Shown here: in pieces, positions 23,997-64,000 of the stretch
Position numbering within the stretch: the first letter of the stretch is position 1
How the letters are laid out: each line of letters opens with the position of its first letter
DNA from: an uncultured Bacteroidota bacterium
GTDB lineage: Bacteria > Bacteroidota > Bacteroidia > B-17B0 > Aurantibacillaceae
Assembly (NCBI GenBank): GCA_903834765.1
Contig: CAILKE010000030.1
Location: 1 to 64,000 of the forward strand
Length of the DNA stretch: 64,000 nt
Reading direction: 5' to 3'
Position numbers and translations under genes: made by a program
The notes under the pieces: generated by a model
Databases searched by the model: none
What the model was told of the DNA's origin: nothing
What the model saw: the letters and a program-made list of their open reading frames with translations, nothing else

Positions 23997-24067
23997 AGAT
24001 AGGGTTTATTTAGAGAACATTCACTTGCAGGAACCTCCATTTAATACCTTTTCATCGTTGAACTGCC

Positions 24068-24083
24068 CCCGATAGCTATCGGG
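24068..24083. repeat. 16-bp perfect palindrome CCCGATAGCTATCGGG
   Basis: This perfect palindrome lies between the J-domain gene and pafA, both on the minus strand. The same 16 bases occur at 61512-61527. It has no T-run, so it is not a typical terminator; it looks like a dispersed palindromic repeat, though it could form a small hairpin in RNA. Confidence 0.75.
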
Positions 24084-24094
24084 ATTTGAAAGCC

Positions 24095-61359: not shown

Positions 61360-61391
61360 ATCATTATCTTTAAAAAGTTAAATTTCTTCTT

Positions 61392-61578
61392 ATGAAATAG
61401 CCATGTTTGCCGAAACACAAACACCAATTATTAAACTGGCTATACCATATGACAAAAAAAACAATAATTTAAACATATGAAATAGCCATGTTTGCCGAAA
61501 CACTAACACATCCCGATAGCTATCGGGAGAAGATAAACTGGCTATACCATATGACAAAAAAAACAATAATTTAGACAT
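61392..61578. repeat. Imperfect tandem duplication, 85-bp and 102-bp copies
   Basis: Copy 1 is about 61392-61476 and copy 2 about 61477-61578. They share ATGAAATAGCCATGTTTGCC, then GAAACAC(a/t)AACAC, and after a variable centre AAACTGGCTATACCATATG followed by an A-rich stretch. The centre differs: copy 2 carries a palindrome-bearing segment of 17 extra bases. In copy 2 the ends CATATGAAATAGCCA (61474-61488) and TGGCTATACCATATG (61539-61553) are inverted repeats matching at 13 of 15 bases; copy 1 has the same ends with one further change. The block lies directly before the metallopeptidase ATG at 61579. Confidence 0.85.
61511..61528. repeat. Second copy of the CCCGATAGCTATCGGG palindrome
   Basis: Here the palindrome extends to 18 bp (TCCCGATAGCTATCGGGA) and is found only in the second copy of the tandem duplication, at its centre. 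The 16-bp core is identical to 24068-24083. Confidence 0.8.
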
Positions 61579-64000
61579 ATGAAAAAAATAATTTTACTTT
61601 CTATATTTTTACTTATTTCAATCACAGAAATAATAGCTCAAACCGAATACATTGATTACCGCTCTCAAACCAATGAGTTATATTGGAAAAACCGCAAACC
61701 CTTTGCCGATTATTGGCAACAAGATGTTCACTATAACATCACCGCTCAGTTAAATGACAGTACAGATATTATATCTGGACATGAGGAATTAACCTATTGG
61801 AATAATTCTCCTAAGGATTTATATTTTGTATACTTTCATTTATACAATAACGCGCAGTGTAAAGATTCTTACCTCGCCGACTTATATAAAAACAATAATT
61901 ACCATTTGAAATTTAATAAATACCGTGATGATGACAAAGGCACGAACGTTGAAAAAATCAAAGTTGGTAACACGGAGTTAAAAACAGAATTAGATAATAC
62001 CGTTTTAAAAGTATACTTGGAAAAGCCCTTAAAATCAGGTGAATCCATCACGTTTGACCTTGATTTCAAAACCTATTATGCCAAAGAAGTGATTCGTAAC
62101 CGCATGAAATTATTCAACGCTTTTGGATATAAACATTTTGATGTCACACATTGGTATCCGCGTATTTCTGTATTTGACAGAAAACTTGGATGGGACACAG
62201 ACCAACACATGGATCATGAATTTTATGGTGATTTCGGATCATTTCACGTAGAGTTTACATTGCCAAATAATTATGTATTAGATGCGACAGGTGTTTTACA
62301 AAATGAAAAAGAAATGTTTCCTGATTCCTTACGTAAACAATTAGACCTTTCTAACTTTGCTAGTAAGCCTTGGAATTCGCCACCTAGCATCATTATCAAA
62401 CGTGATGGTACTAATAAGACATGGATATTCTCTGCATTAAATGTGCACGATTTTGCGCTAACTGCCGATCCAACCTATCGTATTGGTGAATATATGTGGC
62501 AAGGCATCAAATGTGTGGCTTTAGTTCAAGAGCCTCATGCTGCAGGTTGGCAAACCTGTCCGCAATTTATTGCGAAAGTATTAGATGTAAATACATATAA
62601 CATTGGTCCTTACCATTACCCTAAAATGATTTGTGCCGATGCACAAGACGGTGTAGAGTATCCTATGCTAACCCTTGATGGTGGCTACGATCCAAACTAC
62701 CGTGATTTATTGATCCATGAAATGACACACAATTGGTTTTTTGGAATGGTAGGTAATAACGAAACCTATCGTGCTTTTTTAGATGAAGGCTTTACTCAAT
62801 TTTATACTGCCGACACGTATCAGTTTATTGATGGTCCAAATAAGATTGAACAAAAACCAAAGAGCAAATATGTGCAACGCTTCACTGAACAAAATCGCAT
62901 TTTAGATGATCAAGTGTATAATGGATACATGAATGCCGTAACCGTAAGGCAAGAAGAAGTAACCTTGAATACACACAGCGATGATTTCAATGGAGGTATT
63001 CGTCATGGTGGTGGATATGGCGCTGTATATACCAAAACAGGAACGATGCTAAAGAATTTAGAATATGTATTAGGTCGTTCACTATTTGATAAATGTATGC
63101 AACATTATTTCAATCAATGGAAATTTGCACATCCCTACCCTGAAGATTTTAGAAATTCAGTAATCCAATACAGCGGTGTTGATTTGAATTGGTTTTTTGA
63201 CCAATGGCTCGAAACCACTAAAAAGATTGACTACAAAATAGGTCGTATTAAAAAAGGAGATAAAGCGGGTGAGTATTTAATTAAATTCAAACGTAAAGGC
63301 GATATGCAAATGCCAATTGATTTTACGGTATTAGATAAAAACGATTCTGCCTATCATTACTACATTCCTAATACTTGGTTCGAAAAACCAGTAAGAGCAG
63401 ATGTATTACCTCGTTGGATTGGTTGGGGTAAAGTAAAACCAACCTACATTGCAAAAATACAATTGAGTGATAAAATTAAAAATGTGATTATTGATCCTTC
63501 TCGTCGCTTAGCCGATGTAGACATGACAAATAATGTGAAACATCAACGCGTCAATATCACTTTTGATTCTAAAATTTATAATCCTTTAGATTGGAAGCAT
63601 TATGAATTAAAAGCCCGACCAAGCTTATGGTATAATGGTTATGATGGTATTAAAGTTGGTGCACATTTAAATGGAGGTTACATGAATACAAAACATGTAT
63701 TTGACCTAACGGCATGGTTTAGCACAGGATTCGGACAAGCCTATTTGGATAGCAGTAACAAAAAAAGTAATTATAATATTGTATCGTTTATTTTAAATTA
63801 TAGAACATCTACTTCTAAATTCATAAAGAAATCAAATGTATATGCGACTGTTAAATCTTTAGATGGTTTGCAAAGTGCGTTAATTGGTTTCGAGAAAAAA
63901 AGTAATAATGAACGAAACCGTATTTACATTCAAGCAAAAGCGATGCTACGTGATTTGCCAAATGACTTAGTGTATTTGATCAATCAAAACGAATGGCAAA
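61579..64000 (+). CDS. M1-family metallopeptidase with a C-terminal beta-barrel-like region (partial)
   Basis: The gene starts at ATG 61579 and stays open to the window end (807 codons seen). A signal peptide covers about the first 20 residues, ending near IIAQ. Residues about 40-310 are the N-terminal beta domain. The zinc site is HEMTHNW with H380, E381 and H384, and the third ligand E403 in FLDEGFTQF, the HExxH-x18-E spacing of M1 enzymes. After about residue 650 the sequence changes to alternating strands (YELKARPSLWYNGYDGIKVGA, ending in LTAWFSTGFG) that look like an outer-membrane barrel. It is an exported aminopeptidase, perhaps outer-membrane anchored. The true C-terminus is not in the window. 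Confidence 0.88.
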   Translation, partial: MKKIILLSIFLLISITEIIAQTEYIDYRSQTNELYWKNRKPFADYWQQDVHYNITAQLNDSTDIISGHEELTYWNNSPKDLYFVYFHLYNNAQCKDSYLADLYKNNNYHLKFNKYRDDDKGTNVEKIKVGNTELKTELDNTVLKVYLEKPLKSGESITFDLDFKTYYAKEVIRNRMKLFNAFGYKHFDVTHWYPRISVFDRKLGWDTDQHMDHEFYGDFGSFHVEFTLPNNYVLDATGVLQNEKEMFPDSLRKQLDLSNFASKPWNSPPSIIIKRDGTNKTWIFSALNVHDFALTADPTYRIGEYMWQGIKCVALVQEPHAAGWQTCPQFIAKVLDVNTYNIGPYHYPKMICADAQDGVEYPMLTLDGGYDPNYRDLLIHEMTHNWFFGMVGNNETYRAFLDEGFTQFYTADTYQFIDGPNKIEQKPKSKYVQRFTEQNRILDDQVYNGYMNAVTVRQEEVTLNTHSDDFNGGIRHGGGYGAVYTKTGTMLKNLEYVLGRSLFDKCMQHYFNQWKFAHPYPEDFRNSVIQYSGVDLNWFFDQWLETTKKIDYKIGRIKKGDKAGEYLIKFKRKGDMQMPIDFTVLDKNDSAYHYYIPNTWFEKPVRADVLPRWIGWGKVKPTYIAKIQLSDKIKNVIIDPSRRLADVDMTNNVKHQRVNITFDSKIYNPLDWKHYELKARPSLWYNGYDGIKVGAHLNGGYMNTKHVFDLTAWFSTGFGQAYLDSSNKKSNYNIVSFILNYRTSTSKFIKKSNVYATVKSLDGLQSALIGFEKKSNNERNRIYIQAKAMLRDLPNDLVYLINQNEWQ

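Follow-up and report, generated by a model that had tools for sequence, protein, structure and literature searches.

Successive insertions of a small, putatively mobile leader element at the start codon of a Bacteroidota M1-peptidase gene

Comparison with related genomes shows that the 187 bp directly upstream of an M1-peptidase gene, at positions 61392-61578 of the window (the whole 64,000-nucleotide stretch of Bacteroidota DNA that was analysed), arose through two insertions, one after the other, in which a non-coding mobile element of ~85-105 nt entered the ATGAA at the start of the gene. The family to which the element belongs is real and wide-ranging. We class it as a variant of the small non-autonomous mobile elements because its mobiliser was not found, and such mobile leaders at start codons could prove categorically new. 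Taken as a whole, serial insertion of mobile leaders at ATGAA, coupled to a pairing-guided choice of target that we infer and to an enzyme encoded elsewhere, is very probably the best explanation.

Near-identical copies with differing centres had been noticed here in an earlier sequence-only reading, the coordinates of which were right: the interval consists of units of 85 bp (61392-61476) and 102 bp (61477-61578), whose shared blocks are 98% identical across 51 nt and whose start-to-start spacings are 85 and 102. It stops exactly at 61579, the ATG of the downstream Peptidase_M1 gene. Both units open with ATGAAATAG and are followed by ATGAA, and every unit of the family is flanked by two ATGAA copies; owing to this duplication on both sides, the exact junctions cannot be placed. 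When the 187 bp were taken out in silico, the window flank aligned with an empty site in 11 relatives. The alignment runs TATnTTTA-AGGGTT...ATGAA and on into the peptidase gene, the TATnTTTA-AGGGTT of these same-genus relatives (n = 11) lying at the same distance from ATGAA as the promoter box of the window. The insertions thus sit between the native promoter and the gene (Table 1). Peptidase orthologues of the relatives lack the 187 bp, and further empty sites were found beyond the 11 aligned relatives. A second empty-site test, at C40, matched the upstream gene alone, in one relative, the sequences diverging before the insertion point. The element is placed in sense orientation between the two ATGAA copies, of which the right-hand one acts both as the new start of the gene and as a fresh target. 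Because each insertion restores ATGAA, the target is not exhausted and arrays grow serially. The mobilising enzyme would be encoded away from the element.

Table 1. Features of the peptidase locus and its two element units (window coordinates).
Feature	Position	Strand	Basis
Native promoter, -7-like box TATCTTTA, predating the insertions	61365..61372	+	alignment with 11 same-genus relatives
Left ATGAA, where the gene originally started; at present a two-codon ORF (ATG AAA TAG)	61392..61396	+	empty-site alignment
Unit 1, 85 bp, short-core subfamily	61392..61476	+	profile model matches; identical distant units
Unit 1 helix 1, 5' arm ATAGCCA	61397..61403	+	folds; covariation
Unit 1 helix 1, 3' arm TGGCTAT	61437..61443	+	folds; covariation
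Unit 1 internal CATATG, guide-like segment and helix 2 5' arm; pairing possible with either flanking ATG	61446..61451	+	pairing test; folds; covariation
Unit 1 right-end CATATG, helix 2 3' arm, holding the regenerated ATG	61474..61479	+	pairing test; covariation
Unit 2, 102 bp, palindrome-bearing subfamily	61477..61578	+	blast, model, unit comparison
Unit 2 helix 1, 5' arm	61482..61488	+	folds
Palindromic mini-insert TCCCGATAGCTATCGGGA in the unit 2 loop	61511..61528	.	palindrome searches
Unit 2 helix 1, 3' arm	61539..61545	+	folds
Unit 2 internal CATATG	61548..61553	+	pairing test; folds
Unit 2 right-end CATATG with the start codon that the gene now uses	61576..61581	+	pairing test; empty-site alignment
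Peptidase_M1 gene (PF01433), continuing past the window end	61579..64000	+	profile match; orthologues in 18-19 relatives

Searched with blast, the genome that contains the window gave 45 matches on ~30 contigs, and a sequence profile made from 15 units gave 60, amounting to ~57 units at ~46 loci; identical 90-nt units occur at unrelated places in this genome. Two genomes of the same genus, G013 and G016, hold 38 and 45 units, respectively, and G122, a complete genome from another family, gave 32 matches that form its own subfamily. A pattern scan of named genomes picked out 22 contigs, all from Bacteroidota (among them Flavobacteriaceae, Pedobacter and unclassified Bacteroidia MAGs). With a structure-aware model the family was detected in at least 16 of 392 Bacteroidota genomes, spanning 8 genera and 4 families, a carrier count that is a lower bound given the strict filters of the survey. 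IMG/VR viral contigs yielded zero matches to an exact pattern, and no PLSDB plasmid matched the window locus. None of the copies seen in the window's genome or G122 was a longer form with an internal gene. Rfam 15 covariance models run on both strands of 8 loci, with E up to 1, produced no match overlapping the elements; matches outside them were weak and at chance level. No published description of the family was found in the open-access literature or in Rfam.

The elements are concentrated at gene starts. The right-end ATGAA starts a sense ORF of at least ~50 amino acids at 38 of 45 array ends in the window's genome and at 26 of 29 in G122, and it is the start of a sense gene at about 18 of 23 loci in G013/G016 and 17 of 20 loci in an out-of-sample survey; on the 22 named contigs, too, almost every array ends at a gene start. 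For comparison, ~46 ATGAA sites in the window divide into 13 called gene starts and ~33 intergenic non-starts, so random intergenic insertion would put roughly 30% at starts, a background for which the gene calls were crude and a single 64-kb window was used. The downstream genes are varied and include LepA-like, RimK-like, HisI-like, MCE-domain-like and DEAD-helicase-like proteins, response regulators and lipoproteins, as named from their N-termini; a profile was applied to the window gene alone. The same gene was seen to be occupied by different subfamilies in different species (L122, L135 and L140; L152 and L246), which suggests recurrent insertion at one start codon. The remaining ~10-20% of loci lie at other ATGAA sites, for instance L194 and L039, which face convergent genes, and the start-codon preference may therefore owe something to selection. 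On a rival view, insertion at ATGAA would be random and only insertions at start codons would survive, those within genes destroying the genes. We regard this as possible though somewhat doubtful: in the window, intergenic non-start ATGAA sites outnumber start sites ~2.5-fold and insertions there should often be neutral, yet even young units that are identical are mostly found at starts.

The units are predicted to fold into a stem-loop and a second helix, both of which covary. Folding z-scores of the window units on the + strand were about -3.5 to -5.7, and an alignment of 16 diverse units supported two helices, formed by columns 6-15/58-67 and 70-75/101-106. In these helices 90% of cells were paired, compared with 23-45% when slid; 8 of the 16 pairs vary at both positions, and any of five covariation measures was reached by 0 of 500 shuffles, with the qualification that the tests keep relatedness only in part and the counts are not independent events. 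Pair 73/103, for example, occurs as AU (5), GC (5), UA (2), CG (1) and GU (1). Swapping stem arms between units gave a mean of -6.0 kcal/mol, compared with -9.5 kcal/mol for arms with their own partner. Helix 2 joins the internal CATNNG to CNNATG, which contains the new start codon (shuffle p = 0.0005), in combinations that include CATATG/CATATG, CATGTG/CACATG, CATTTG/CAAATG and CATCTG/CAGATG. The left ATG is an alternative partner for the internal CAT, the two then pairing across a 2x2 internal loop; when folded as DNA, unit 2 takes this form and unit 1 the other. In a first alignment the 3' arm was displaced by a one-base bulge, so that RNAalifold reported no structure; an alignment free of the bulged members resolved the helices. 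The suggestion in the sequence-only reading that the copy ends are inverted repeats holds in part: the inverted arms are those of an internal hairpin (ATAGCCA/TGGCTAT) and CATATG is repeated, whereas the termini themselves (left, ATGAAATAGCC; right, CTACATATGAA) contain no inverted pair.

The internal CATNNG may also bear on how targets are chosen. Of 29 non-array sites in the window's genome, 23 have T as the host base preceding the left ATG (position -1), and the opposite internal base there is mostly A; in G122 the host base is C at 11 of 23 sites and the opposite internal base mostly G. At non-ATGAA starts of the same loci, the background is ~41% T and ~14% C, respectively, and the effect is drawn from 52 sites in two genomes. 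This complementarity to the internal segment suggests targeting by base pairing, although targets that merely resemble the right end of the element could produce an identical pattern. In IS608, target choice through base pairing is established (PMC5934647). For the present element we infer that the target would be recognised on single-stranded nucleic acid, with the internal CATNNG pairing with (N)NATG, and that one internal segment would serve the ATG at either boundary. Carried further, the family would be a self-guided class of element in which the internal CATNNG, shared by both boundaries, pairs with the start codon; the element would thereby home to the ATGAA of a gene, replace the leader and supply a new start by means of some enzyme, perhaps at R-loops or on mRNA; we put this forward tentatively, with the chances somewhat against it.

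A non-autonomous element of the IS200/IS605 type would account for several of these features. A Y1 (HUH) transposase, guided by CATNNG, would act on single-stranded DNA and cut it at TTCAT/ATGAA, and the subterminal hairpin, the lack of long terminal inverted repeats such as DDE-type elements carry, and a short fixed target that flanks one end and is repeated at the other all agree with it. So does an internal segment complementary to the target, for which IS608 is the precedent (PMC5934647), target pairing being a candidate property of the present element. We nevertheless consider this origin unlikely. The only Y1 gene of the window's genome is RAYT-like and has its own, unrelated palindromes; no ends were shared between the element and a Y1 element at that locus or at the best Y1 loci fetched from carriers and non-carriers; and G016, with 45 units, gave neither a Y1 transposase nor a reverse-transcriptase match. 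Moreover, Y1 targeting by itself leaves the preference for start codons unexplained, and the element differs from the IS200/IS605 single-strand transposons and their short derivatives, palindrome-associated elements included, in having neither a linked Y1 gene nor shared ends and in possessing one guide-like segment for both boundaries. The presence of Y1 genes does not track the element, and a Y1 transposase was rejected as the mobiliser. A reverse transcriptase was rejected too: the window's genome has one such gene, apparently retron-type by sequence, and presence of the enzyme does not track the element. Some carriers may have lost the mobiliser, or it may be an enzyme of another family.

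Three observations concern these enzyme genes themselves. The RAYT-like Y1 gene (L061 1260-2110; G000:C53, C53:35955) is flanked by ACACCTGTCAGGTTT...AAACCTGACAGGTGT palindromes and makes up a separate REP-like system with them. The retron-type-looking reverse transcriptase (L219 1345-2358; G000:C4) lies beside a DnaB-like helicase fragment. In G122 there are nineteen reverse-transcriptase genes that are near-identical or related to one another; they probably represent group II introns, and some are closely clustered.

Other known systems resemble the family in part. Like REP/RAYT sequences, the elements are short, intergenic hairpin repeats in many copies; unlike them, they are unlinked to the RAYT-like gene, whose palindromes differ, and lie at gene ATGAA in the sense direction and in head-to-tail arrays. 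With MITEs they share small size, lack of coding capacity, many near-identical copies, a short fixed direct repeat (ATGAA) at each end and, for the window locus, empty sites in relatives; they differ from MITEs in their lack of terminal inverted repeats, strict orientation relative to genes and covarying internal helices. IscB/HEARO elements insert beside ATGA; unlike those, the present element is ~90 nt long, matches neither the Rfam HEARO family nor a leader family, and has no nuclease gene that we could see. The TAACTGA direct repeats of Beggiatoaceae, some Cyanobacteria and Bacteroidetes (PMC4679880) also lie directly upstream of start codons in the sense direction, but they are tandem heptamers with no hairpin, no captured ATGAA and no demonstrated empty site.

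Once inserted, the element makes up the 5' leader that separates the native promoter from the gene, and an A-rich stretch precedes the new ATG. A transcript from the native promoter would carry the old AUG in or beside helix 1, and helix 1 together with the internal segment would hide it, leaving ribosomes to the new AUG and rendering the insertion nearly harmless. In 68% of distinct units the captured AUG is followed within six codons by a stop; the mini-ORF that begins there often reads M-K-stop or M-K-X-P-stop, despite stem differences among subfamilies. In Bacteroidota, initiation is free of Shine-Dalgarno pairing; structure and adenines tune it, and the vicinity of starts is depleted of AUG (PMC6847099). 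An insert that hid the old AUG and brought a good new context would cost the host little.

The same features would fit a conserved cis-regulatory leader RNA that defines a regulon and has spread for its regulatory effect, not as a mobile element. Position in the 5' UTR, two covarying helices, a start codon within helix 2, the rapid stop behind the captured AUG and occupation of the same gene in distant species all speak for such a leader. It has against it the empty sites, the serial arrays, ATGAA at both ends and the insertions away from genes, as well as downstream genes that are unrelated (lepA-like, hisI-like, rimK-like, lipoproteins) and a loop that tolerates palindromes and longer inserts; we judge it distinctly improbable as the sole explanation. 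Mobility and regulation do not exclude each other. If the mobile-leader explanation is true, DNA that settles at start codons and spares the gene would be a rare solution for dense bacterial genomes. The elements would rewire the 5' leaders of dozens of genes, housekeeping genes included, and, by bringing an A-rich leader together with a new AUG and with a hairpin able to hide the old AUG, would provide natural experiments on Bacteroidota initiation. Annotation is affected as well: at L195 in G122 (G122:C1:2220114-2220212) no stop interrupts the frame between the old start codon and the new one, and the gene could gain an element-encoded N-terminal extension.

The arrays, which reach six units in G013/G016, bear on the claim that the two window copies arose by a recent duplication. 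In 9 of 10 arrays in the window's genome the closest match of every unit is a distant unit, not its neighbour; the tenth array (C57) contains one unit that ties between the two. Unit 1 of the window shows 0 differences from distant units (C40:49028, C53:71949 and C4:393558, its core being identical to that of C46 too) and 6 events from unit 2, which is itself 3 events from its nearest distant unit. Cores with and without the palindrome occur in all orders in other arrays, and the corresponding site of the relatives has neither copy. From these comparisons, the two window cores are two pre-existing subfamilies that were inserted one after the other. That a leader was recently duplicated on the spot, one copy then gaining or losing a palindromic mini-element, would suit two similar adjacent copies with the palindrome in just one, but it is very improbable in the face of closer distant relatives, recurrence of both cores elsewhere and an empty site with neither.

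The sequence-only reading had also correctly described an AT segment in copy 1, CCAATTATT, standing where copy 2 has TCCCGATAGCTATCGGGA. It took this for a snapshot of a palindromic mini-element being inserted, replaced or deleted; the mini-element proved genuine, whereas its gain or loss within this interval did not hold up. With up to 2 mismatches allowed, TCCCGATAGCTATCGGGA has 2 matches in the window, compared with 0 expected by chance, and the 16-mer palindrome CCCGATAGCTATCGGG occurs at 37 sites in the genome, ~20 inside elements and ~17 outside, with 0 for a reversed control. The palindrome is thus a separate mini-insert in the loop of one subfamily, acquired outside the window locus. 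Comparison of the long-form core, ACACAT-palindrome-AGAAGATAAAC, with ATGAAGATA of divergent members suggests a single palindrome insertion into the ancestral loop, followed by spread of the palindrome-bearing subfamily. Within elements the palindrome occupies one loop position and, in three loci (L030, L033, L034), also a site in the tail. Another element position is taken by a different palindrome, TCCCGAATCAAGTTCGGGA (L031, L032, L035, L037). Mini-inserts of this kind therefore enter the element repeatedly.

Outside any element, a second CCCGATAGCTATCGGG copy lies at 24067-24084 of the window, and at G000:C52:25854-26024 and C75:24-117 the same palindrome is repeated every 77-78 bp in what is apparently another repeat family. 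The loops of L033, L034 and L035 share a further insert, TTGCGAAGCACTCAACG...GCAGTTGAGTT, which can fold back and constitutes a third kind of nested mini-insert.
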